Assembly (NCBI RefSeq): GCF_003149515.1
Contig: NZ_CP029145.1
Span: forward strand, 4,650,001 to 4,714,000
DNA from: Hymenobacter nivis
Lineage (GTDB): Bacteria; Bacteroidota; Bacteroidia; Cytophagales; Hymenobacteraceae
Direction: 5' to 3'
Length of the DNA stretch: 64,000 nt
Under the pieces are notes generated by a model. That model searched no databases. It had not been told where the DNA came from and was given only the letters and a program-made list of their open reading frames with translations. A program made the position numbers and the translations under genes. Shown here piece after piece: positions 6,070 to 27,714 of the stretch. The first letter of the stretch is position 1; each line of letters starts with the position of its first letter.

Positions 6070-9000
6070 CTAGGCCGGGGCGATGGTGCCTTCGGCCGGG
6101 GCCCCACCGTCTTTGGCGGTGGTGTCTTCGGGGTTCCCGTCGTCCTTTTTGGGGCCCCCGTGCTCCTCATCGGGCTTGTAGTTTTTCTCCATTTCGGCCA
6201 GCTTTTCCTTGCCGTAGGCGAAGCGGGTGATGATGACGTAGAGCACCGGCACGATGAAGATGCCCAGGCCGGTGGCCGCCAGCATCCCGCCGAGCACCGT
6301 CCAGCCCAGGGTCTGGCGGCTTTGGGCCCCCGCGCCCGAGGCAAACACCAGCGGCAGAATGCCCAGGATGAAGGCCAGCGAGGTCATGATGATGGGGCGC
6401 AGGCGCAGGTGCACGGCTTCCAGGGTGGCTTGCACCAGCGGCATACCGCGGTCCACGCGCTCCTTGGCAAACTCAATGATCAGGATGGCGTTCTTCGCTG
6501 AAAGGCCAATGAGCGTGATCATGCCGATTTGGGCGTACACGTTGTTGGTGAGCTTGGGCAGGAAAAACAGCGCCAGGATGGCCCCGAAAATACCGACCGG
6601 CACGGCCAGCAGCACCGAGAACGGCACTGACCAGCTCTCGTAGAGGGCGGCCAGAAACAGGAACACGAAAATGATGGAGAGCGCGAAAATGTAAATCGTC
6701 TGGCCGCCGGCCAGCAGCTCCTCGCGGCTCAGGCCTGAGAACTCGTAGCCGTAGCTCCGGGACATGGTTTGGGCCGCCGTTTCCTGCAAGGCCTTGATGG
6801 CGTCGCCGGAGCTGTAGCCGGGGGCTGGGTTGCCGTTAATTTCGGCCGAGCGAAACAGGTTGTAGTGCGAGATGAGGGGCGCGGTTTCCTCGCGCTTGTA
6901 GGTGGTGAGCGTGCTCAGGGGTACCATGCCGCCGGCAGAGTTGCGCACGTAGTACTGGCCCAGGTTGGCAATGTCGCCGCGGTAGGAGGAGTCGGCCTGC
7001 GCCACCACCCGGAACGTGCGGCCGTAGAGCGTGAAGTCGTTGATGTAGGCGCTGCCCAAGTACGTGCGCAGGGCCCCCCCGATATCGGCAATCGAGACGC
7101 CCAGCTTCTTGGCTTTTTCGCGGTCAATGTCGAGCTTGTAGCCCGGCGTGCTGGCCGTGAAGAAGGAGAAGCCCGAGGCAATTTCGGGCCGCTTGCGGAT
7201 GGCCCCCAGGAATTTTTGCAGGTTGGCGTCAAAGGTCTGGATGTTGCCGCCGGCCTCGCGCTCCTGAAAAATGAACGAGAAGCCGCCCGTGTTGCCCAGG
7301 CCCGGAATGGCGGGCGGCGAAATTACCACCGTGGTGGCCTCCTTGAAGCGGGCCATGCGCTGCTGCACGGTGGCGATGAGGCCTTGCAGTTGCAGGGCCT
7401 TGTCCTTGCGGTTTTCCCAGGGCGCAAGCTGGCAGAAAATGGTGCCCGAGTTGGATTTTGAGGAGAAGTTCACCGCGTTCAGGCCCCCCAGGGCGGCGTA
7501 GTGCGCAATGCCCTTAGTTTTGCTCAGCTCCTTCATCATCTCGTGCAACGTAGCCACGGTGCGGCCCGTGGAGGCGCCCTCGGGCAGGTTGAAGGTGACG
7601 ATGATGCGGCCCTCGTCCTCGGTGGGCAGGAAGCCGCTGGGCTTGCTGCGGAATAGTAGCCCGGCCCCCACCACGATGCACACCAGGATGATGACCACGA
7701 AGCGCGAGTGCTTGATGCTGCTCGCCACGCCACTCCCGTACTTCTCGGTGACGCGCCCAAACCAGTTGTTAAACTTGAAAAACAGCTTGTTGAGGCCCGT
7801 CGAGCTGTCGTCGCGCTTGGTGGGTTTCAGCAGTAGCACGCACAGGGCGGGCGTGAGCGAAAGGGCCACGAAGGCCGAAATCAGCACCGAAATAGCAATG
7901 GTGATGGCAAACTGCTGGTACAGGCGCCCCGTGATGCCGGGGATGAAGCCCACCGGCACGAACACCGCCGCCAGAATCAGGGCAATGGCAATAACGGGCG
8001 CCGAAATCTCGCGCATGGCCTCCAGCGTGGCGTCGAGCACGTTCATGTCGCGCTCGTTCATGTTATGCTCCACGGCTTCCACCACTACAATGGCATCGTC
8101 GACCACAATACCGATGGCCAGCACGAAGCCAAAGAGCGTTAGGGTGTTGATGGTGAAGCCCAGTGGGATGAAGAACGTAAACGTGCCGATGATGGACACC
8201 GGGATGGCCAGCACTGGGACGAGCGTGGAGCGCCAGTTCTGGAGGAAGAGGAACACCACGATGACCACTAGCAGCAGGGCCTCCACCAGCGTTTCCACTA
8301 CTTCCTTGATGGATACCTTTATCACGCTCGCTGACTCGAAGGGCACGATGTAGTTGAGGTCGGTGGGGAACTGCTTCTTGAGCTGGTTCATGGTGGCCAG
8401 CACGTTGTCGTAGGTTTCGAGGGCGTTGGCGCCAGGGGCCTGGTACACGAGCAGGTAGGCGGCGCGCTTGCCGTCGACGAACGAGTTGTTGGCGTAGTTG
8501 AACTTGCCCAGCTCCAGGCGAGCCACGTCCTTGAGGTATACCAGTTGCCCGTCCTTCGGATTAGTTTTGACGATGACGTTACCGAACTGCTCGACGGTGG
8601 CGAGGCGGCCCTGCACCGTCACGATGTACTCGAACGGCTGCCCGTGCTCGGCCGGTGGGGCCCCAATGGAGCCGGCCGCAATCTGGGCGTTTTGCTCCGC
8701 CAGGGCAGCCGAAATGTCGCCGGCCGTGATGCCCATCTGGGCCAGCTTGTCGGGCTTCAGCCAGATGCGCATCGAAAAGTCGTCGGCGCGCGACACGATG
8801 TCGCCCACGCCCTTGGTGCGCAGCAGCGCGTCTTTGATGAACACGTTGGCGTAGTTGTCGAGGAAGGTGGAGCTGTGCGTGCCCTTGGGGGCGTACATGG
8901 CCACCAGCATCAGGATGCTCGGGTTGCGCTTGCGCACCGTAAGGCCCAGGCGCTGCACGTCCTGCGGCAGGGTGGGCAGGGCAATGCCCACGCGGTTTTG

Positions 9001-16267: not shown

Positions 16268-16411
16268 TGTAGAAACAGTTGAGACAACTGATTTATTAAC
16301 AAATATTTAAGATAAAAAAGCGAACGATTGGAAATAGTACAACGCCCAGAAAATAATTTTCGGCTGCTCGCCTGACAACGGTACTTGCAGTGCAATATCC
16401 ACTTTGTTAAT

Positions 16412-16434: not shown

Positions 16435-17601
16435 ATGTCGGTCCAAAAAATCCAAATATTCGATACCACGCTCCGCGACGGCGAACAGGTACCGGGCTGC
16501 AAGCTAAACCAAGCCGAGAAGCTCGTCATCGCTCGCCAACTCGAGGCCCTGGGCGTCGACGTGATTGAGGCTGGCTTTCCTGTATCGAGCCCCGGCGACT
16601 TTGCCGCCGTGGCCGCCGTTGCGGCCCAAACCAAAGACGCTACCGTGTGTGGCCTCACCCGCGCCGTCGAAAACGACATCCGCGTGGCCGCCGAGGCGCT
16701 ACGGGGGGCCCGCCGCCCGCGCATCCACACCGGCATCGGCACCTCCGACCTGCACGTGCAGCAGAAACTACGCACGACTCGTGAAGACGTGCTGGCCCGT
16801 GCCGTGGCCGCCGTCAAGCTCTCCAAGAGCTTCGTGGAGGACGTCGAGTTTTACGCCGAAGACGCCGGCCGCACCGACAACGAGTTTCTGGCCCGCGTGT
16901 GCGAGGCCGTCATTGCCGCCGGGGCCACTGTGCTCAACATCCCCGATACCACCGGCTACTGTTTGCCCCACGAGTACGGTGCGAAGATTAAGTACCTGTA
17001 CGAGAACGTGAAGGGTATTGAGCGCGCCATTCTCTCCACCCACTGCCACAACGACTTGGGCCTGGCCACGGCCAACTCTATTGCCGGCGTCAGCAACGGG
17101 GCCCGGCAAATTGAGTGCACCATCAATGGGGTAGGGGAGCGGGCCGGTAACACGGCCCTGGAGGAGGTGGTGATGATCCTGCGCCAGCACCCCGACCTCG
17201 GCCTTAGTACCAACGTGCAAACCCGCCGCCTGGCCGAAACCTCGGCCCTGGTCTCGCACCTGATGAGTATGCCGGTGCAGGCCAACAAGGCCATTGTGGG
17301 AGCTAACGCCTTCTCGCACAGCAGCGGCATCCACCAGGACGGCGTGATTAAGTGCCGCGAAACCTACGAAATCATCGATCCTAAAGAAGTGGGCGTCGTC
17401 GATTCGAGCATCGTGCTCACCGCCCGCTCGGGCCGCGCCGCCCTGGCCTACCGCCTCCAAAAGCTCGGCTACGATTTCGAACGCCCGGCCCTCAACACCG
17501 CCTACGCCAGTTTCCTCACGCTCGCCGACCGCAAGCGCGAGGTGGGCGACGAGGACCTGCACGCCCTCGTGGAGCAGGAGAAGCTCGTGGCTGCCAATTA
17601 A
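16435..17601 (+). CDS. leuA: 2-isopropylmalate synthase (short form)
   Basis: LeuA condenses acetyl-CoA with 2-oxoisovalerate, the first committed step to leucine. The protein begins [18 protein letters not shown], the HMGL-like catalytic barrel with the metal-binding Asp and Arg. [13 protein letters not shown] carries the metal-binding histidines, and [14 protein letters not shown] is the LeuA signature that separates it from homocitrate synthase. It has only 388 residues: after the catalytic and helical subdomains it stops, and the C-terminal leucine-binding regulatory domain of the approximately 520-residue enzymes is absent. It heads leuA-leuC-leuD-leuB and is followed by leuC after 12 bases. 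Confidence 0.95.
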
Positions 17602-17613
17602 GCTAAAATCACA

Positions 17614-19005
17614 ATGGCTAGCACCTTATTCGATAAAATTTGGGATGCCCACGTCGTCCGCTCCATCGAGGGGTTGGACGTCGTGTACATCGACCGTCAC
17701 CTCATTCACGAAGTAACCAGCCCCCAGGCGTTTGACGAGATTGCGGCCCGCAACCTGCCGCTGTTTCGCCCCAGCCAGATTCTGGCCACGGCCGACCACA
17801 ACGTGCCTACCCTGCACCAAGACCAGCCCATCCGTGAGTTGCTCTCGCGCTTGCAGGTGGAAAAGCTAACAGAAAACTGCCAGAAGTACGGCATTGAGTT
17901 GTACGGCCTCGGCCACCCGCGCCAAGGTATTGTGCACGTTATCGGGCCGGAGCTGGGCCTCACGCAGCCGGGCCTGACAATGGTGTGCGGCGACAGCCAC
18001 ACCTCGACCCATGGCGCGTTTGGCGCGGTGGCCTTTGGCATTGGCACCAGCCAGGTTGCGCAGGTGATGGCCTCGCAGTGCCTGCTACTGAGCCGCCCCA
18101 AGCGCATGCGTATCTCGGTAGAAGGTGAGCTGCGGCCCGGCGTCACGGCTAAGGATTTGATACTTTACGTTATCTCGCAGCTTGGTACGGGCGGGGCCAC
18201 GGGCCACTTCGTGGAGTACGCGGGCAGTACCGTGCGTAGCCTCAGCATGGAAGGCCGCATGACCATCTGCAATATGAGCATCGAGATGGGGGCCCGCGGC
18301 GGCCTCATCGCCCCCGATGCCACTACGTTTGCCTACGTCGAGGGCCGGCCCTTCGCCCCAAAAGGCCAAGCTTGGAACGACGCCGTGGCCTACTGGCAGA
18401 CATTATATTCAGACGACGACGCTATGTTTGAGACGGAGTATACCTACCAGGCGGCCGCCATTACGCCGATGATTACCTACGGCACCAACCCCGGCATGGG
18501 TATTCCGCTCACCGGCCACGTGCCGAGCGAAGTGCCCGCCAGCGAAGCCGAAAGTTTTGACAAGTCGCTGAAATACATGGGCTTCGAGCGCGGCGAGTCG
18601 CTGCTCGGCAAGCAGATTGACTACGTGTTCATCGGCAGCTGCACCAACTCGCGCATCGAGGACTTACGCGCTGTGGCCGCCTACGTACAGGGCAAACAAA
18701 AGGCGCAGCATGTGGAGGCCATCATCGTGCCCGGCTCCAAGCAAGTAGAGCAGCAGGCTATTGCCGAAGGAATCGATAAGATTTTCGCCGCCGCGGGCTT
18801 CGAGCTACGCGAGCCTGGTTGCAGCGCCTGCCTGGCCATGAACGAGGACAAAATCCCGGCCGGGGCCTACTGCGTGGCTACCTCCAACCGCAACTTTGAA
18901 GGCCGCCAGGGCCCTGGCTCGCGCACGCTGCTGGCTTCGCCGCTGGTGGCGGCCATCACCGCCGTGCAGGGCCGCATCGTGGACATTACGCAGTATTTGA
19001 ACTAA
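17614..19005 (+). CDS. leuC: 3-isopropylmalate dehydratase large subunit
   Basis: LeuC with LeuD isomerises 2-isopropylmalate to 3-isopropylmalate using a [4Fe-4S] cluster. The 463 residues match the family. [17 protein letters not shown], near residues 126-142, is the aconitase-family motif. The three cluster cysteines are visible: Cys in [13 protein letters not shown], and two in [12 protein letters not shown]. The start follows leuA closely, and the stop codon TAA shares its last base with the ATG of leuD, which suggests translational coupling. Confidence 0.97.
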
Positions 19006-19601
19006 TGGAAAAATTTCAAACCCTGCATACCACTGGCCGGCCGCTGCCGCTGGAAAACATTGATACCGACCAGATTATCCCGGCCCGGTTTCTGAAAGCG
19101 ACTACCCGTGAAGGATTTGGTACCAACCTGTTCTGCGACTGGCGCTACCACGCCGACGGCGCGCCCAAAGCTGACTTCGTGCTGAATGACCCGCGCTACC
19201 AGGGCCAGATTCTGGTGGCGGGCAAAAACTTCGGCTGTGGCTCCAGCCGCGAGCACGCCGCCTGGGCCCTGTACGACGCTGGTTTTCGGACCGTTATTTC
19301 AAGCTACTTCGCCGATATTTTTCGGGGTAATGCCTTGAATACCGGTCTGCTACCCCTGCAAGTGAGCGACGAGGTACTGGCCCGCCTGCTAGCCGCTATC
19401 GAGGCCAACCCGCAACTGGAATTAGTGGTCGATTTGCCTTCGCAGACCCTGGCTGTGCCAGCCTGGAGCGAGACGTTCAGTTTCGCCATCGACGGCTATA
19501 AAAAGGAGTGCCTGATTAATGGCTACGACGACATTGACTTTTTAGTAAATCAAAAATCGGCCATTGAGGCCTTTGAAAAAAAACGTGCATGGACCTGGTA
19601 A
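19005..19601 (+). CDS. leuD: 3-isopropylmalate dehydratase small subunit
   Basis: This is the swivelling small subunit that completes the LeuCD active site. The 198 residues match LeuD. Characteristic segments are [13 protein letters not shown] near the N-terminus and [17 protein letters not shown], the aconitase C-terminal signature. It begins on the last base of the leuC stop codon and overlaps leuB by 13 bases at its end, so the three genes are tightly coupled. Confidence 0.97.
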
Positions 19602-20710
19602 CTAAGAAAATAGCCGTATTGCCTGGTGATGGTATCGGGCCGGAAGTCTGTCGGCAGGCCGTCAAAGTGCTCGACGCCGTAGCCGAGCGCTTCGGCCATC
19701 GCTTTGAGTTCTCCTCGCACCTCGTGGGGGCCTGCGCCATCGACGCCACCGGTAACCCGCTGCCCGACGAAACCCTGGCCGCCTGCCGCGCCGCCGATGC
19801 GGTGCTGTTCGGGGCCATCGGCGACCCGAAGTACGACAACGACCCCACCGCCAAGGTGCGCCCTGAGCAGGGCCTACTTCGGATGCGCAAGGAGCTGGGC
19901 CTGTTTGCCAACATCCGCCCCGTCACGGCTTACAAAGCACTTTTAAAGCACTCGCCGCTGAAGGCTGACCGCATCGAAGGGACTGATTTAGTGATTTTCA
20001 GGGAATTGACGGGCGGCATCTACTTTGGCGAGAAGGGCCGCAACGCCGATGGCTCGGCCTACGATAACTGCACCTACTCGCGCCCCGAGATTGCTCGCAT
20101 TGCGCACCTTGCCTTTCAATCGGCCGTGAGTCGCCGCCAGCACCTTACGCTGGTAGATAAAGCTAATGTGCTGGAAACTTCGCGTTTGTGGCGCGAAGTG
20201 GTGAGGAACATCGCCTTGCAGTACCCGGCTGTGACCGTTGATTACCTGTTTGTGGACAATGCCGCGATGCAGATAATCGTGAACCCCAAGCAGTTTGATG
20301 TGATGCTGACCGAGAACATGTTCGGCGACATCATTTCGGACGAGGCTTCGGTGATTGCCGGCTCGATGGGCCTGCTGCCTTCCGCCTCGGTGGGAGCCGC
20401 CGTGGCAGTGTTTGAGCCCATCCACGGCTCCTACTCCCAAGCTACGGGCAAAGGAATTGCCAACCCGCTGGCGGCAATCCTCTCGGCAGCCATGCTACTT
20501 GACCACCTGGGCCTGGTGGCCGAAGCCGAGTTGGTGCGTGAAGCGGTGGACGAAGCGTTGACCAATAATATTTTGACCCCCGAGCTGAACCCCACTGCGC
20601 CCTACACCACCGAGCAGGTAGGCAGCTACGTGGCCTTTTGGATTGCCGACTCGAACGAGCAGCAGTGGAACGCCCATAACATCGCGGTGGGCGTGAGCAC
20701 GATTATTTAA
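19589..20710 (+). CDS. leuB: 3-isopropylmalate dehydrogenase
   Basis: LeuB oxidises and decarboxylates 3-isopropylmalate to 2-oxoisocaproate with NAD. The 373-residue protein starts [15 protein letters not shown] and contains the substrate arginine-bearing segment around GLFANIRPV. It has the tyrosine in [12 protein letters not shown] and the Mg-binding aspartates in [35 protein letters not shown] forms the NAD site. It is the last leu gene before the attenuator, and no terminator separates it from the 80-bp repeat downstream, so transcription may run into the leader. Confidence 0.97.
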
Positions 20711-20712
20711 GT

Positions 20713-20790
20713 GTGGCGTGGACTCTGCGAGTCCGCGCGTTGAACGATACTAAAAACGACCTGCGCGTGGACTCGCAGAGTCTACGCTAC
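20713..20790. repeat. 80-bp palindromic repeat (R2 family), copy 1
   Basis: The left arm begins GTGGCGTGGACTCTGCGAGT and the right arm ends GACTCGCAGAGTCTACGCTAC; 27-base arms match with about three mismatches. The core contains GCGAGTCCGCGCGTTGAACGA, which recurs in copy 2 at 25131. It fills the gap between the leuB stop and the ilv leader peptide. Confidence 0.85.
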
Positions 20791-20798
20791 TCTCCGCC

Positions 20799-20858
20799 AT
20801 GCGCCCTTTCCTACTACCCGTTATTTCCGTGGTCATTATACCTATCCTCGCGGGCTAG
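20799..20858 (+). CDS. Branched-chain amino acid leader peptide (ilv attenuator)
   Basis: A 19-codon frame encodes MRPFLLPVISVVIIPILAG and then TAG. Ten of the 19 residues are Leu, Val or Ile, with runs LL, VI, VVII and IL. The composition and the VISVVIIP pattern strongly resemble the enterobacterial ilv operon leader peptide. It is placed as an attenuator requires: the control codons lie upstream of a segment (20849-20858, including the stop codon) that can pair with the loop and 5' arm of the downstream terminator. It precedes ilvD by 94 bases. The peptide itself would have no function; its translation is the sensor. Confidence 0.85.
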   Translation: MRPFLLPVISVVIIPILAG

Positions 20859-20916
20859 CAGGTATTTCTTACCCCAAAGAAAACCTTCCTAGCTCGCGGC
20901 TCAGGAAGGTTTTTTT
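20849..20916 (+). promoter_or_regulatory. Transcription attenuator: antiterminator and terminator before ilvD
   Basis: The terminator stem is AAACCTTCCT (20881-20890) with AGGAAGGTTT (20903-20912), followed by T to 20916. An alternative stem pairs CGCGGGCTAG (20849-20858) with CTAGCTCGCG (20889-20898): ten consecutive pairs including one G-U, using the terminator loop and the top of its 5' arm. The two cannot form together. A ribosome stalled on the Val/Ile codons leaves 20849-20858 free, so the antiterminator forms and ilvD-ilvB-ilvN-ilvC-ilvA are transcribed. A ribosome reaching the TAG at 20856 covers that segment and the terminator forms. The pairing is seen in the sequence; the mechanism is inferred from known ilv, leu and thr attenuators. 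Confidence 0.8.
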
Positions 20917-20951
20917 AGGGCCAAACCGAATTTATTTGCCGCAATAATACC

Positions 20952-22673
20952 ATGATAATCAACAAATTCAGCCGTATCTACACCCAGGACGACAGTTTGC
21001 CGGCTTCGCAGGCCATGCTCATCGGCGCGGGCTTGTCGGATGCGGATTTGCGCAAGCCGTTCGTGGGAATCTGCTCCACGGGCTTCGAGGGCAATACTTG
21101 CAATATGCACCTCGACGGGCTGGCCGACGAGGTGAAGCGCGGCGTGACCGCCCAGGGGCTGGTGGGGCTGCGCTTCAACACAATTGGCGTGAGCGACGGC
21201 ATCACCAACGGCAATCCTGGGATGCGTTTCTCGCTAGTATCCAGGGAGATAATTGCCGATTCGATTGAAGCCATGGCGGGCGCGCACTACTATGACGCGT
21301 TGGCCACGGTGGTAGGCTGCGACAAAAATATGCCGGGGGCCCTCATTGCCATGGCGCGGCTCAACCGGCCGTCGCTGATGGTGTATGGCGGTACCATTCG
21401 GGGAGGCGAGTTCAAAGGGCAGCAGCTCAACATTGTGTCGTGTTTTGAAGCTTATGGTAAGAAAGTTAACGGAAATATTTCGGAGGAAGACTACCAGGGT
21501 ATCATCCACAATGCCTGCCCTGGGCCGGGGGCCTGCGGCGGCATGTACACGGCCAACACCATGGCCGCTGCCATCGAAACGCTGGGCATGACGGTACCCG
21601 CTTCGTCGTCGCTGCCGGCCGAGAGCCGCGCTAAAATCCAGGAGTGCCTCGATGCCGGGGCCTACCTGCGCAACCTGCTGGAACTGGACCTAAAGCCGCG
21701 CGATATCCTTAATCGTGAGGCGTTTGAGAATGCTATGGTGATGATAACCGTGCTCGGCGGCTCGACCAATGCCGTGCTGCACCTCATTGCCATTGCCCAC
21801 GCGGCCGGTGTGCGGCTGACGATGGAGGACTTCCAAGCCGTGAGCAACCGCGTGCCAGTGCTGGCCGACCTCAAGCCCAGCGGTAAATATCTCATGGAGG
21901 ACCTATCGAAAATCGGGGGCGTGCCCGCTGTGCAGCGCACCCTGCTCGACCTCGGCCTGCTGAATGGCGACCTGATGACCGTAACCGGCCGCACGCTGGC
22001 TGAAAACCTGGCCCATGTGCAACCACTTGGCCCTGAGCAGGATTTGCTGCGCCCGCTCAGCAACCCACTCAAGGCCGACGGGCATATTCAGATGCTGTAC
22101 GGCAACCTCGCTACCAAGGGCAGTGTAGCCAAAATCAGCGGTAAGGAAGGGCTGCGGTTTGAGGGGCCGGCCATCGTTTTCAACTCGGAAGAGGAGCTGA
22201 ACCAGGGCATTATAGCTCACAAAATCGAGGCTGGGCAGGTGGTCGTCATTCGATATGTGGGGCCCAAGGGCGGGCCGGGCATGCCTGAAATGCTCAAGCC
22301 GACCTCGGCCATCATGGGCGCGGGCCTGGGCGACAAGGTGGCGTTGATAACCGACGGGCGCTTTTCGGGCGGTACGCACGGCTTCGTTATCGGCCACATC
22401 TGCCCCGAGGCCTACGACGGCGGCGGCCTGGCCCTGGTGCAAAACGGCGACTGGATTATCCTCGACGCCACCAACAATACCATCGATGTGCAGCTCGACG
22501 AGGCTGAGCTGGCCGCCCGCCGCGCCGCCTGGCGGCGGCCGCCGCTGCCCGTCCGGCAGGGCGTGCTGCTCAAGTATATCCGCACTGTGAGCGACGCCAG
22601 CCACGGTTGCATAACTGATTTACTAGAAGAAGATTATGTTTCAGAACCTGCCTTCAGCCCTGCTCGCCGCTAG
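20952..22673 (+). CDS. ilvD: Dihydroxy-acid dehydratase
   Basis: IlvD dehydrates 2,3-dihydroxy-isovalerate and -methylvalerate to the 2-oxo acids of valine and isoleucine. It is an Fe-S enzyme of 573 residues, the usual length. Three candidate cluster cysteines are visible in [16 protein letters not shown] and [18 protein letters not shown], and [17 protein letters not shown] is the family's C-terminal signature. It is the first gene after the attenuator. Its 3' end overlaps ilvB by 38 bases, so the two are probably translationally coupled. Confidence 0.96.
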
Positions 22674-24381
22674 TCCAGCCGTGCCGGTCCTCGCGCCTGC
22701 CACAGGCGCGGTAGCCACGCTGCAAGCCCTGGTGGCCGAGGGCGTCGACACGATTTTTGGCTATCCCGGCGGGGCCATCATCCCGATTTACGACGTGCTT
22801 TACGACTTCAAGGAGCAGCTGAACCACGTGCTGGTGCGCCACGAGCAGGGCGGCATTCACGCGGCGCAGGGCTATGCGCGCAGTTCGGGCCGGGTGGGCG
22901 TGGTGCTCGCCACGAGCGGGCCGGGTGCCACGAACCTCGTGACCGGGCTGGCCGATGCGCTGATTGACAGTACGCCGCTGGTATGCATCACGGGGCAGGT
23001 ATTTGCGCATTTGCTGGGCACCGATGCGTTTCAGGAGACGGATATCATCAACATCACTACCCCCGTTACGAAGTGGAATTACCAGGTAACCAACGCCGAA
23101 GAGATTCCGGAAGCGCTTGCCAAGGCGTTTTACATTGCGCGTAGCGGCCGGCCGGGCCCTGTGCTAGTGGACATCACTAAGAACGCGCAAATCCAGACGT
23201 TCGACGCGCCGGAGTATCAGCCGTGCCACCATATCCGCAGCTACCGGCCCGCGCCGGTGGTACGCCCCGAGTACATCGAGCAAGCGGCGGCGCTGATTAA
23301 TAACGCCCAGCGGCCGTTTATTCTCTGGGGGCAGGGCGTGGTGCTGGGTTCGGCAGAGCAGGAATTCCGGGAGTTTGTGGAACACAGCGGTATCCCGGCG
23401 GCCTGGACCATCCTGGGCGTGGGGGCCCTGCCCACCGGCCACCCCCTGAACGTGGGCATGCTGGGCATGCACGGCAACTATGGCCCCAACGTACTCACCA
23501 ACGAGTGTGACGTGCTGATTGCCATTGGGATGCGCTTCGACGACCGCGTGACCGGCCGGCTGGATAAGTATGCTAAGCAGGCCCAGGTCATTCACCTCGA
23601 CATCGACCCGACCGAGATTGACAAAAACGTGAAGGCCACCGTGCCGGTGTGGGGCGACTGCAAGGAAACTCTCCCCTTGCTCACGGCACTCGTTGAGCCC
23701 AGGCAACATACGGCTTGGCTCGCCCGCTTCAACGACCATACGGAGCAGGAGGTGAATGCCGTGATTCGGGAGGAATTATTTCCGACAACAGAAGAGTTGA
23801 CGATGGGCGAAATCATGCAGCAGCTCAACGAAATCACGCAGGGCGAGGCCATTATTGTATCGGATGTGGGTCAGCACCAAATGATTGCTTGCCGCTACGC
23901 GCAACTCAATCACTCGCGTAGCAACATCACGAGCGGCGGGCTGGGCACCATGGGCTTTGCGCTGCCGGCGGCCATCGGGGCCAAGCTGGGGGCCCCCGAC
24001 CGCACCGTGGTGGCCGTCATCGGCGATGGCGGTTTCCAGATGACCATCCAGGAGCTGGGCACCATTATGCAGACGGGTGTGGACGTGAAAATCATGATTT
24101 TCAACAACCAGTTTCTCGGCATGGTGCGGCAGTGGCAGGAGTTATTTCACCAGCGTCGCTACTCGTTTGTGGATATTCAAAGCCCTGATTTTGTAGCTGT
24201 TGCCGCCGGCTACCGCATTGCCGGCCAGCGCGTAGACGCCCGCGCCGACCTGCGCCCCGCGCTGGAACGGATGCTGGCGCACCCCGGCTCGTTTCTGCTG
24301 GAGGTAATGGTCACCAAGGAGAACAATATCTTTCCAATGGTGCCGCAGGGGTGCAGCGTAGCGGAAATAAGGCTGCGGTGA
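22636..24381 (+). CDS. ilvB: Acetolactate synthase large subunit
   Basis: This ThDP-dependent enzyme forms acetolactate or acetohydroxybutyrate, the first common step of valine, leucine and isoleucine synthesis. The 581 residues have the three ThDP-enzyme domains. The N-terminal domain has [16 protein letters not shown] and the catalytic Glu in [15 protein letters not shown]. The central FAD-type domain lies at about 215-350. The ThDP-binding motif starts at [15 protein letters not shown] and ends at NN. The first 25 residues are a poorly conserved extension encoded inside the ilvD overlap, so a slightly later start is possible. Confidence 0.96.
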
Positions 24382-24403
24382 GGCAATTGAATATAAAAAG
24401 AAT

Positions 24404-24492
24404 GTCGTGCTGAGCGCAGCTGAAGCATCTCTACCGCGGCAGTAATCATGATCAGCTGAGCAGTAGCGATGCTTTGATAAGCTCAGCATGAC
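24404..24492. repeat. Palindromic repeat (R1 family) between ilvB and ilvN
   Basis: The outer arms GTCGTGCTGAGC and GCTCAGCATGAC, with GAAGCATC and GATGCTTT further in, enclose a middle with CAGTAATCATGATCAG. It lies in the 139-base gap between ilvB and ilvN and would be transcribed as a hairpin. It may be an unoccupied form of the site that carries the 143-bp element at 32.1 kb. Confidence 0.75.
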
Positions 24493-24520: not shown

Positions 24521-25126
24521 ATGAGCACCGAACCCGTTGACCGCCAAGAGTACAACATCACCGCGTACACTGAAAACCAGGTGGGCCTGCTCAATCGCAT
24601 TGCCATCATCTTTTCGCGTCGTAAAATCAATATTGAGAGCCTCAACGTGTCGCCTTCGGAGATTGAGGGCATCCACCGCTTCAACATCGTGATTGTGGAG
24701 ACGGAGGAGGTCGTAGAGAAGCTCGCCAAGCAGATTGAGAAGCAGGTGGAGGTGCTCAAAGTGTACTACAACACCAACGCCGACGTGATTTGGCAGGAAA
24801 TGGCGCTCTATAAAGTGCCCACCGACGTGATTGCCGAAAAAGTGCTCGTGGAGCGCCTGCTGCGAGAAAACGGCGCCCGTGCCGTGGTGATTCGCAAGGA
24901 TTACACGGTGTTTGAAACCACTGGCCACCGCGAGGAAACCGACAGCTTAATCAAGGCTCTGCAGCCTTATGGGCTGATTGAGTTTGTGCGCTCGGCGCGC
25001 ATTGCCATCATCAAGGCCAGCGACGGCTTTCACCATAAGCTCAAGGATTTTGAGCGCCGCGAGCCGAGCGAAGAAGTGGCCGAGAACGAGTTTTTGAATG
25101 ACCGCGAGCAGGTTTTTACGATGTAA
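24521..25126 (+). CDS. ilvN: Acetolactate synthase small (regulatory) subunit
   Basis: This subunit activates IlvB and carries valine feedback inhibition. The 201-residue protein has an N-terminal ACT domain (YNITAYTENQVGLLNRIAIIF at about 10-30, then NIESLNVSPSEIEGIHRFNI) and the C-terminal ALS_ss domain. Its length is between the short IlvH type and longer fused forms. It follows ilvB after an R1 hairpin and precedes an R2 hairpin and ilvC. Confidence 0.95.
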   Translation: MSTEPVDRQEYNITAYTENQVGLLNRIAIIFSRRKINIESLNVSPSEIEGIHRFNIVIVETEEVVEKLAKQIEKQVEVLKVYYNTNADVIWQEMALYKVPTDVIAEKVLVERLLRENGARAVVIRKDYTVFETTGHREETDSLIKALQPYGLIEFVRSARIAIIKASDGFHHKLKDFERREPSEEVAENEFLNDREQVFTM

Positions 25127-25130
25127 GAAT

Positions 25131-25212
25131 GTAGCGTGGACGCTGCGAGTCCGCGCGTTGAACGACACCCTTTTTTAAACCCACGCGCGCAGACTCGCAG
25201 CGTCTACGCTAC
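25131..25212. repeat. 80-bp palindromic repeat (R2 family), copy 2
   Basis: The left arm starts GTAGCGTGGACGCTGCGAGT and the right arm ends AGCGTCTACGCTAC. The core GCGAGTCCGCGCGTTGAACGA is shared with copy 1 at 20713-20790. It fills the ilvN-ilvC gap, in the same orientation as copy 1 relative to the operon. Confidence 0.85.
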
Positions 25213-25229
25213 AACAACCCCCAATCCCC

Positions 25230-26291
25230 ATGGCTACCATCAACTTCGGCGGTGTACCCGAAACCGTTATTACCCGCGATGAATTTCCGCTCGCCAAGGC
25301 CCTCGATTTCCTGAAGGACGACACCATTGCCATAATCGGCTACGGCGTGCAGGGCCCCGGCCAGGCGCTGAACATGCGCGACAACGGCTTCCACGTCATC
25401 GTGGGCCAGCGCGAGGGCACGCCGTCGTGGGAGCGCGCCCTCAAAGACGGTTGGGTGCCAGGCGAGTCGCTGTTCAGCATCGAAGAGGCGGCCGACAAGG
25501 GTACCATCATCTGCAATCTGCTCTCGGATGCGGGCCAGATTGCGCTGTGGCCCACGCTCCAGAAATACCTCACGCCGGGTAAAACGCTGTATTTCTCGCA
25601 CGGCTTCGGCATCACGTTTAATGAGCAAACTAACATCATCCCGGCCAAGGATATTGACGTGATTTTGGTAGCGCCGAAGGGCAGCGGCACCAGTCTGCGG
25701 CGCCTGTTTGTGGCTGGCGGCGGCCTGAATTCGTCGTTCGCCGTGTTCCAGGATGCTACGGGTAAGGCCTGGGAAAAGGCCATTGCGATGGGCATCGGCG
25801 TGGGCTCGGGCTATTTGTTCGAAACCGACTTTAAGAAGGAAGTGTACTCCGACCTTACCGGCGAGCGCGGCGTGCTAATGGGGGCCCTGGCCGGCATCAT
25901 CGAGGCCCAGTACCAAGTGCTGCGCCAGCGCGGCCACTCGCCCTCCGAGGCCTTTAACGAAACCGTGGAAGAACTCACCCAGAGCCTCGTGCCACTGGTG
26001 GGCGAAAACGGCATGGACTGGATGTTTAGTAACTGTTCGGTAACCGCCCAGCGTGGGGCCCTCGACTGGAAAGGCAAGTTCCGCGACGCTGCCCTGCCCG
26101 TACTTAATGATCTGTACGACAGCGTGGCCAGCGGTGAGGAAGCCCGCCGTACCATTGAGCGCGGCAGCACGCCCAACTACCGCGCCGAGTTAGAAGCCGA
26201 GCTGAAAGAAGTGCGCGACTCGGAACTCTGGCAGACGGGCGCCACCGTGCGCGAGCTGCGTTCGCGCACGAGCGAGAACGTGGAGGCGTAG
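25230..26291 (+). CDS. ilvC: Ketol-acid reductoisomerase
   Basis: IlvC rearranges and reduces acetolactate or acetohydroxybutyrate to the dihydroxy acids used by IlvD. The 353-residue protein follows the Bacteroides-type sequence closely: an N-terminal FGGVPETVITRDEFPL segment, the Rossmann motif IGYGVQGPGQALNMRDNG, SHGFGITF, VAPKGSGTSLR, and the metal-binding acidic residues in DLTGERGVLMG. GHSPSEAFNETVEELTQS carries the second acidic set. Start and length fit this group. It is followed by an R1 hairpin with a T run that may partly terminate transcription before ilvA. Confidence 0.97.
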   Translation: MATINFGGVPETVITRDEFPLAKALDFLKDDTIAIIGYGVQGPGQALNMRDNGFHVIVGQREGTPSWERALKDGWVPGESLFSIEEAADKGTIICNLLSDAGQIALWPTLQKYLTPGKTLYFSHGFGITFNEQTNIIPAKDIDVILVAPKGSGTSLRRLFVAGGGLNSSFAVFQDATGKAWEKAIAMGIGVGSGYLFETDFKKEVYSDLTGERGVLMGALAGIIEAQYQVLRQRGHSPSEAFNETVEELTQSLVPLVGENGMDWMFSNCSVTAQRGALDWKGKFRDAALPVLNDLYDSVASGEEARRTIERGSTPNYRAELEAELKEVRDSELWQTGATVRELRSRTSENVEA

Positions 26292-26311
26292 TCCGCTTCT
26301 GCGCTGACTCA

Positions 26312-26411
26312 GAACGTCATGCCGAGCAAAGCGAAATAGCTCTACCGCGCCGCAGGGTTTTCCAACCTAACGAAGCGGTAGAGCTGCTTCACTGCGCTCA
26401 GCACGATGTTC
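26312..26411. repeat. Palindromic repeat (R1 family) between ilvC and ilvA
   Basis: The arms GAACGTCATGCCGAGC and GCTCAGCACGATGTTC, with internal AGCTCTACCGC and GCGGTAGAGCT pairing, form a roughly 100-bp hairpin. It is followed on the + strand by T6 (26412-26417), so it has a terminator-like shape inside the ilv operon, 20 bases before ilvA. Confidence 0.75.
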
Positions 26412-26430
26412 TTTTTTAAGCTGTTAATCA

Positions 26431-27714
26431 ATGCCCTACTCCATGCCCGACCTGGAAGCTCCGGCGGCTACCGCCGTTACCCTGGAAAATGTAGAACGTG
26501 CCGCGCGCCGTCTCAAAGGCGTGATTACCAAGACGCCCTTGATGTTGAATCTAGGGCTTTCGCGCACGTACGACGCTACTATTCTGCTCAAGCGGGAAGA
26601 CTTGCAGGTGGTGCGCTCCTACAAAATCCGGGGGGCTTACAACAAGATTTCGACGCTGCCCACCACCGTGCCGGGCCGCCAGATAGTGTGCGCCAGCGCC
26701 GGCAACCATGCCCAGGGTGTAGCCTACGCCTGCCAGCTGCTGGGCTTGCAGGGCGATATTTTCATGCCCGCTCAAACGCCCGCGCAGAAGGTGGACAAGG
26801 TGCGCCTATTCGGCAAGGATATGGTGACGGTGCACCTCACCGGCCGCACGTTTGATGACTGCTACCACGCGGCGCAGGCGTTTTGCGACGCGCGCGGCAG
26901 CACGTTCGTGCACCCGTTTGACGACCTGGCCATTGTGGAAGGGCAGGCCACGGTGGGCCTGGAAATTCTGAAAGCCACCAAAGCGCCGATTGATTTTTGC
27001 TTCATGCCCATTGGCGGCGGCGGGCTGGCCTCGGGCTTATCAAGCGTGTTCCGGCAGCTTAGCCCGCAGACGCGGCTTATCGGCGTACAGCCACTAGGGG
27101 CCCCGAGTATGCACGATGCCCTCCGGGCCGGGCAGCGGCAGGCGCTGGCCAGCCTCGACACTTTTGTGGATGGCGCGGCCGTGAAGTGCCCCGGCGAGCT
27201 GACGTTTGGCATTTGCCAGGCCTTGCTCGACGAGGTACACCTCGTGCCCGAGGGGCAGGTGTGCGAAGATTTGCTGAAGATGTACAACGAGGAAGGCATG
27301 GTGCTGGAGCCGGCCGGCACGCTCGCCATCTCGGCCCTGCACGCCTACGCCGACCAGATACGGGGCAAAACAGTGGTGTGCATCGTGAGCGGCTCCAACA
27401 ACGACATCACCCGCATGGAGGATATCAAGGAACGCGCCCAGCGCCACCAGGGCCTCAAACACTACTTTATGGTAACCTTCAACCAGGCACCGGGCGCGCT
27501 CCGCCGCTTCGTGAACAACGTGCTCAACGAGGGCACCGACATCATTCAGTTTCAGTACATCAAGAAGAACAACAAGGAAAAAGGCCCCGTCTTCATCGGC
27601 GTCGAGGTCAAAAACCCGCACGACGTAGAGGGTATTAAGGTCCGCATGGCCGACGAAGGGTTTGGGTTTGAGTACCTGAACGGCAAGCAGGATTTTCTGA
27701 GTTTGCTGGTGTGA
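26431..27714 (+). CDS. ilvA: Threonine ammonia-lyase (threonine deaminase)
   Basis: IlvA converts threonine to 2-oxobutyrate, the entry to isoleucine. The 427-residue protein is a PLP fold-type II enzyme with the PLP lysine in RSYKIRGAYNK, CASAGNHAQGVAYAC, the phosphate-binding IGGGGLASGLSSV, and SGSNND. The C-terminus (from about residue 340) is one ACT-like regulatory domain, beginning HYFMVTFNQAPGALRRFVNN. It is the short biosynthetic form. It closes the block of leu/ilv genes. Confidence 0.95.
   Translation: MPYSMPDLEAPAATAVTLENVERAARRLKGVITKTPLMLNLGLSRTYDATILLKREDLQVVRSYKIRGAYNKISTLPTTVPGRQIVCASAGNHAQGVAYACQLLGLQGDIFMPAQTPAQKVDKVRLFGKDMVTVHLTGRTFDDCYHAAQAFCDARGSTFVHPFDDLAIVEGQATVGLEILKATKAPIDFCFMPIGGGGLASGLSSVFRQLSPQTRLIGVQPLGAPSMHDALRAGQRQALASLDTFVDGAAVKCPGELTFGICQALLDEVHLVPEGQVCEDLLKMYNEEGMVLEPAGTLAISALHAYADQIRGKTVVCIVSGSNNDITRMEDIKERAQRHQGLKHYFMVTFNQAPGALRRFVNNVLNEGTDIIQFQYIKKNNKEKGPVFIGVEVKNPHDVEGIKVRMADEGFGFEYLNGKQDFLSLLV

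Follow-up and report, generated by a model that had tools for sequence, protein, structure and literature searches.

The gap between leuB and ilvD of Hymenobacter nivis very probably holds a ribosome-coupled transcription attenuator of the ilv genes that senses valine and isoleucine, a reading drawn from comparison and calculation. The gap is 241 nt long and contains a repeat hairpin, a leader frame and an overlapping antiterminator and terminator; it lies in a 64,000-nt stretch of the 5.03 Mb genome which was analysed as a whole (the window; Table 1). An initial annotation had proposed a leader-peptide attenuator of ilv at this place. Its frame, antiterminator and terminator were all re-found in position, the leu genes that it had placed upstream on the same strand were named by NCBIfam models, and its reading of the element is well supported by the comparisons and calculations given here.

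Table 1. Features of the leu-ilv region of the window and related leaders elsewhere in the same genome.
Feature	Position	Strand	Basis or remark
Candidate shared promoter region before leuA	16330..16388	+	Alignment with DNA before leader-ilvE, 11 relatives
Boxes before leuA: GGAAATAGT; TTTT; TACTTGC	16330..16338; 16357..16360; 16382..16388	+	Same alignment, 11 relatives
leuA-leuC-leuD-leuB	16435..20710	+	NCBIfam models over cut-off; upstream of attenuator
Leader peptide frame MRPFLLPVISVVIIPILAG-stop	20799..20858	+	Sequence reading; ATG in 87/89 frames including the window (start rule used prefers ATG)
Likely control codons Val11-Val12-Ile13-Ile14	20829..20840	+	Codon conservation; computed switch point here
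Antiterminator 5' arm	20848..20858	+	Fold, co-variation, arm swaps; overlaps leader stop codon
Antiterminator 3' arm	20889..20899	+	Fold, co-variation, arm swaps; within terminator 5' half and loop
Predicted intrinsic terminator hairpin with T7 (20910-20916)	20877..20916	+	Fold and co-variation
ilvD, first gene behind attenuator	20952..22673	+	NCBIfam model over cut-off
ilvB (acetolactate synthase large subunit)	22636..24381	+	NCBIfam model over cut-off
ilvN (acetolactate synthase small subunit)	24521..25126	+	NCBIfam model over cut-off
ilvC (ketol-acid reductoisomerase)	25230..26291	+	NCBIfam model over cut-off
ilvA (threonine ammonia-lyase)	26431..27714	+	NCBIfam model over cut-off
trp leader, AWWWPLRTS core, before trpE-type gene, then terminator	G000:C1:1654981-1655058 (L283:382-459)		Same genome as window
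Phe/Tyr-rich leader before prephenate dehydratase gene, then terminator	G000:C1:3710658-3710551 (L285)	minus	Same genome as window
His-rich leader HGHHYHHR before hisG	L282:142-237		TACCTTTG just upstream; same genome as window

The leader frame of the window has 19 codons between its ATG and a TAG stop (20856-20858). Ten of these are branched-chain codons (three Leu, three Val and four Ile), the number originally counted, so that a short Val/Ile/Leu-rich frame stands before genes that make these amino acids, as in leader-peptide attenuators. No Shine-Dalgarno sequence is visible by eye before the ATG, in agreement with the initial annotation, and initiation there is for this reason an assumption; Bacteroidota are said to start translation largely without such sequences. 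When the gap was shuffled 3000 times with its dinucleotides kept, an ATG frame with at least nine Leu/Val/Ile among 12 codons appeared once, and one other forward-strand frame in the 64 kb is equally dense (starts at 8984, 9017 and 9023). It is conservation that decides whether the leader is real; the single sequence does not.

A first reading of the DNA upstream of 80 ilvD loci and of 67 close ilvD places showed that 14 further loci of the genus have this frame and these hairpins in their leuB-ilvD gap. A covariance model built from these and the window (R1, 15 loci) and searched over 120 Hymenobacter genomes gave matches in 106 at E<=0.01, and also located the element before ilvE-ilvD; the name ilvE comes from an NCBIfam match at one of these loci (L191). 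Examination covered the 70 better R1 places, leaving out weaker ones, opposite-strand echoes of the terminator and a second match at a contig end in genome G112; 61 were kept, 60 of them with ilvE or ilvD behind. None of the nine dropped places (L185 and L218-L225) has an ilv gene behind it; L220-L222 are the C-termini of a small membrane-like protein with a terminator after them, which cautions that tails rich in Ile/Val/Leu can stand before terminators by chance. A second model (R2), searched over 204 genomes of the family for full-length matches below 1e-6, matched 67 of 120 genus genomes and 23 of 84 others, adding five genus loci and 23 others, all 28 with ilvE or ilvD.

In total, 66 of the 120 Hymenobacter genomes have the element and one further genome a remnant of it; among the 84 other genomes of the family 23 have it. 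ilvE or ilvD follows it at 88 of 89 loci; at the exception, L159 behind leuB, the contig breaks off. The 89 exclude the remnant (L272, in genome G019), one locus with no match (L273) and four with weak matches (L274-L277), among them L275, which lies beside ilvE-ilvD but has a poor frame; a partial R2 match in G041 (E 5.6e-7, model positions 68-122, the terminator half) was not counted. The leader is present in 56 of 67 genus genomes with ilvD against 1 of 34 without it, the one being the G019 remnant (Fisher p 5e-16, without correction for kinship between genomes, which all our counts, being raw, ignore). A full-length match was absent from 11 of the 67 ilvD-positive genus genomes, in a search whose filters may lose weak ones. 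The frame, on whose conservation in relatives the initial annotation had staked its proposal, is therefore kept together with both hairpins, their spacing and the ilv genes downstream. Two genomes show other arrangements: in G083 (L096/L273) leuB adjoins ilvD and no leader was found, perhaps a natural loss, and in G019 (L185/L272) a leader remnant and terminator lie behind leuB with no dense frame and no ilvD match.

Conservation within the frame follows its codons. The 89 leaders end in TGA (44), TAG (43) or TAA (2), have 17-20 codons in 78 cases and differ in length mostly by multiples of three, as judged by eye. Codon positions were counted back from the stop in the 62 leaders ending Gly-stop, with Gly-Gly-stop leaders left aside: codon -8 is Val, Ile or Leu in all 62, its second base invariant and its first and third bases variable, codon -7 is Ile in 50 and codon -6 is Ile in 42. 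At every codon from -7 to -14, although not at -6, no base varies less than the second, which is expected if Val, Ile and Leu are free to replace each other. The Val-Ile-Ile core stands eight to six codons before the stop in the commonest leader type, and one codon earlier or two later in leaders with other endings. Leu codons have no fixed place across relatives. Of the Leu, Val and Ile codons first counted, it is thus the Val-Ile-Ile codons that are conserved, and the control codons are probably those for Val and Ile and not for Leu. Single-base codon differences within the window's clade (135 synonymous versus 106 non-synonymous) are not on their own a strong coding signal.

Downstream of the control codons two alternative hairpins can be drawn. 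The ten-pair antiterminator originally described (20849-20858 with 20889-20898) was confirmed and gains a terminal U-G, making 11 pairs with one internal G-U (20853-20894); the segment 20830-20900 folds at -27.7 kcal/mol (z -5.28), and none of 200 shuffles was as good. The terminator has 18 pairs (20877-20894 with 20898-20916, 20902 being bulged) and folds at -21.5 kcal/mol (z -4.63), again with 0 of 200 shuffles as good. As both structures use bases 20889-20894 and 20898-20899 they are mutually exclusive, which upholds the proposal that the antiterminator excludes the T7-ended terminator. A generic terminator scan of the window did not list the latter, probably because of the bulge. The stop codon is part of the antiterminator arm in the window and its clade; at L171 the frame is one codon longer and by eye the arm is still paired. 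A 1:2 (protector-type) pairing is present in the window fold, and by eye the complementary leader stretch is absent from some relatives.

Both stems co-vary among 61 aligned leaders (60 distinct). For the terminator 88.2% of cells are paired, with two-sided changes at 6 of 18 pairs and in 50 cells against 11.9 in shuffled alignments, so that structure and co-variation together predict an intrinsic terminator between the frame and the structural genes. For the antiterminator 80.3% of cells are paired, with two-sided changes at 4 of 11 pairs and in 30 cells against 17.2; its inner pairs, GGGC/GCCC, are near-invariant in the genus and give little co-variation there. By eye the arm cores differ by genus, being GGGCT/AGCCC in Hymenobacter, CCGGGT/ACCCGG in the Pontibacter type and GGTGG/CCACC in the Rufibacter type. 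When arms were swapped between leaders the 5' arm found its best partners among 3' arms of its own clade: mean duplex energies were -20.7 to -23.4 kcal/mol within clades and -14.6 to -19.9 between them, compared with -22.6 for a leader's own arms (weakest -5.5) and -13.3 for a shuffled 5' arm.

These observations bear on whether the hairpin might be a plain constitutive terminator of the leu operon, with a chance frame and a separate promoter for ilv. An operon end directly behind leuB is an expected site for a terminator, and a strong repeat hairpin (-59.6 kcal/mol) also stands there; we nevertheless regard this explanation as improbable, as family-wide conservation extends to the frame, its codon core, the position of the stop and the antiterminator arm, all of which track ilv rather than leu, relatives that lack an adjacent leuB keep the element before ilvE, and a constitutive terminator would need no conserved competing arm. 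A real attenuator whose RNA responds directly to a protein, a small molecule or an uncharged tRNA is very improbable. It would fit the linker between stop and terminator being partly kept within clades, but this linker is variable between clades, the clearest conservation is codon-wise in the frame, and no Rfam 15 family (T-box, riboswitches and known leaders included) reached its gathering cut-off in the window. Searches at E up to 1 (L161, L286, L316 and L282) returned nothing relevant, the sole match near the element falling on the repeat hairpin, to a miRNA family and well short of its cut-off. The distance from leader stop to the end of the model match is 57-71 nt over the 89 loci. We give the same very small probability to leader translation acting in another way, for instance on Rho access or by coupled re-initiation at the next gene; short upstream frames can do so according to the accessible text of PMC4833913, yet in the window 93 nt separate the leader stop from ilvD and an intrinsic terminator with a co-varying stem is present.

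The geometry of ribosome-coupled attenuation was examined with a stall model in which 12 nt downstream of the A site were taken as covered. At equilibrium the window RNA forms the antiterminator as long as the A site is no further than Val12, and the terminator from Ile13 on. When the RNA ends at 20899 the antiterminator keeps ten pairs with the A site at Ile13, eight at Ile14 and five at Pro15. Over the leader set the equilibrium structure is the antiterminator in 45/88 leaders at codon -14, 29 at -8, 27 at -7, 5/89 at -6 and none from -5 on, so that the drop falls at the conserved Val-Ile-Ile core. Even at codon -14 no more than 45 of 88 leaders favour the antiterminator at equilibrium, so the switch has to depend on the order of folding. 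While the terminator is still incomplete, the antiterminator forms in 88/88 leaders at codon -14 and 88/89 at -13 to -6, then in 87, 83 and 48 of 89 at -5, -4 and -3 respectively, and in 0/89 from -2 to the stop. In a control with one arm-and-linker shuffle per leader the corresponding counts were 35-50 of 88-89 over codons -14 to -6, 12-50 of 88-89 over -14 to -3 as a whole, and 0 from -2 on. By this calculation the 5' arm is free when the ribosome is at the control codons and covered when it is at the stop; waiting at the core would therefore allow antitermination and reaching the stop would allow termination. With no ribosome the window leader forms the antiterminator if cut at 20918, and the terminator with a 5' hairpin if cut at 20920.

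In the mechanism we infer, RNA polymerase arriving from the leu genes would transcribe the short frame and a ribosome would translate it. If Val- or Ile-tRNA were short, the ribosome would wait at the Val-Ile-Ile codons, leaving the RNA from 20848 on free to pair with 20889-20899; the terminator would be blocked and ilvDBNC(A) transcribed. With enough of both amino acids the ribosome would reach the stop and cover the 5' arm of the antiterminator, the terminator would form and transcription would end before ilvD. As the element lies 4.4 kb downstream of the probable promoter, every transcript would serve to express leu, and ilv would be expressed only when Val or Ile is short.

The place of the promoter was approached through TAnnTTTG, a promoter consensus, calibrated here on the trp leaders of the genus: it lies within 60 nt of the ATG at 28/30 trp leader loci against 1/89 ilv leaders. 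At the ilvE-first loci it is absent from the 450 nt next to the leader in 13/13, so another promoter form must serve them. A survey of neighbours at 48 loci (some genomes twice; L161 is the window and L185 the G019 remnant) found leuB upstream of the leader at 29 of 30 loci (L156-L185) and at 5 of 17 (L227-L243), and not at L018. Where leuB is missing, 12 of the 13 loci examined have instead a divergent relative of the window's 14723-16267 gene, its start lying 259-352 nt before the leader match; at L183 this gene was missed by the pattern search but is visible in the neighbour survey. Alignment of the DNA upstream of leuA with that before leader-ilvE, leaving out L233 and L183, showed GAAATAGT and TTTT in 11/11 relatives and before leuA in the window, and TACTTGC in 9/11, the others having TACTTGT (L234) and AAATTGT (L235). 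TACTTGC perhaps serves as the promoter form at ilvE-first loci, and the boxes before leuA are a putative promoter. These sequences are most simply read as going back to one ancestral promoter that the leu genes have come to separate from the attenuator, the alternative being that the leu genes were lost in the other relatives; the attenuator thus seems to be operon-internal, separated by leu from an ancestral ilv promoter. That the element could decouple ilv from leu expression, as originally suggested, gains support from the want of TAnnTTTG at ilv leaders and from the likeness between the DNA before leuA and that before leader-ilvE in relatives without adjacent leu.

Dispersed palindromic repeats occupy several gaps of the cluster. 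A REP-like repeat lies at 20710-20791 between leuB and the leader (z -9.2 for its fold) and at 25130-25212 between ilvN and ilvC, with 23 match rows in the genome, itself included, at about 19 distinct places; by eye several relatives have unrelated sequence in place of the copy behind leuB. Another lies at 24400-24490 (ilvB-ilvN gap) and 26310-26415 (ilvC-ilvA gap) and has 69 match rows, some places being matched on both strands.

Leaders of similar design precede other amino-acid genes of the genome (Table 1). Searched as DNA, the trp element had matches in 49/61 genus genomes including the window's, the weakest by terminator alone; all 30 loci read have WWW, and 29 of them, L288 being the exception, have five or more consecutive T within 110 nt. 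Matches to the Phe element were found in 9/61 genus genomes, again including the window's, and 8/8 of those read have a Phe/Tyr-rich frame and a T-run. These Trp and Phe/Tyr leaders are further candidates for attenuators of this design in the genus. Behind the his leader of this genome no terminator with a T-run of at least six was seen, and upstream of its homoserine dehydrogenase gene there is no convincing leader.

The ilvL leader of E. coli ilvXGMEDA is a proven attenuator. It resembles the present element in having a leader with Val/Ile/Leu codons (MTALLRVISLVVISVVVIIIPPCGAALGRGKA, from E. coli DNA), a T-tailed terminator and ilv genes downstream, and even in peptide cores that look alike (VISVV and IIP), a likeness which, with the sequences simply set side by side, may be convergence. 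Hymenobacter-type leaders differ from ilvL in being shorter; the window element also has its stop inside the antiterminator arm, is operon-internal and shows no conserved protector hairpin that we noticed. Closer in taxonomy is Flavobacterium, for which the accessible text of PMC9723704 describes 'strong clues' to leader-peptide attenuation before amino-acid operons of F. psychrophilum, as well as 5' elements that are conserved at pheA and hisG. In our set 19 of 26 Flavobacterium ilvD loci have a Val/Ile-rich leader before ilvD and behind leuB, with a T-run terminator and a computed antiterminator, and the other seven have none of this sort. Their peptide and arms differ from the Hymenobacter type, and a TAnnTTTG box lies within 60 nt upstream in 19/19 (a one-base variant at L065), whereas Hymenobacter-type leaders are without it. 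More generally, a dense Val/Ile/Leu frame with a T-run was found at 25 of 79 ilvD loci with enough upstream DNA (of 80), namely the 19 Flavobacterium loci, two from Hymenobacter's family (L009 and L011), Myroides, Sinomicrobium, an Ignavibacteriae and a Chitinophagaceae MAG, and 21 of 22 examined have a TAnnTTTG-like box. Tandem leader-terminator units stand upstream of ilvD at L105 and L107 and also in Sinomicrobium (L076); the first unit of L105 has TACGTTTG just before its ATG.

Corynebacterium ilvBNC, compared by its description in the accessible text of PMC10272879 and PMC11857589, likewise has a short frame before its ilv genes and alternative hairpins, but belongs to the Actinobacteria and has another gene order. 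In 2010, the accessible part of PMC2965389 indicates, its authors knew of no leader-peptide systems beyond Proteobacteria and Actinobacteria, ermC apart. The initial annotation had called the system undescribed. This holds for the Hymenobacter ilv leader in so far as no description was found among the best literature matches, which leave most subscription journals uncovered, and less so for the phylum, where attenuation has already been inferred in Flavobacterium (PMC9723704, as accessible).

The mechanism is therefore classical, and it is the taxon and the operon-internal arrangement that are fresh: an attenuator design is conserved across a family in which such control has hardly been studied. 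A model of the leader finds the element across the family, which is of use for annotation given that the window leader has no Rfam 15 match. On balance we lean towards a wider view, in which ribosome-coupled attenuation would be general for amino-acid operons (ilv, trp and phe, perhaps his) in Hymenobacter, and probably in much of the Bacteroidota, and in which one promoter would feed ungated leu and Val/Ile-gated ilv genes in the window's lineage. If true, the operon-internal place would be a compact way for one promoter to run leu and ilv at different set points; and, as such control needs a ribosome close behind RNA polymerase, these leaders would make transcription-translation coupling in Bacteroidota directly testable.
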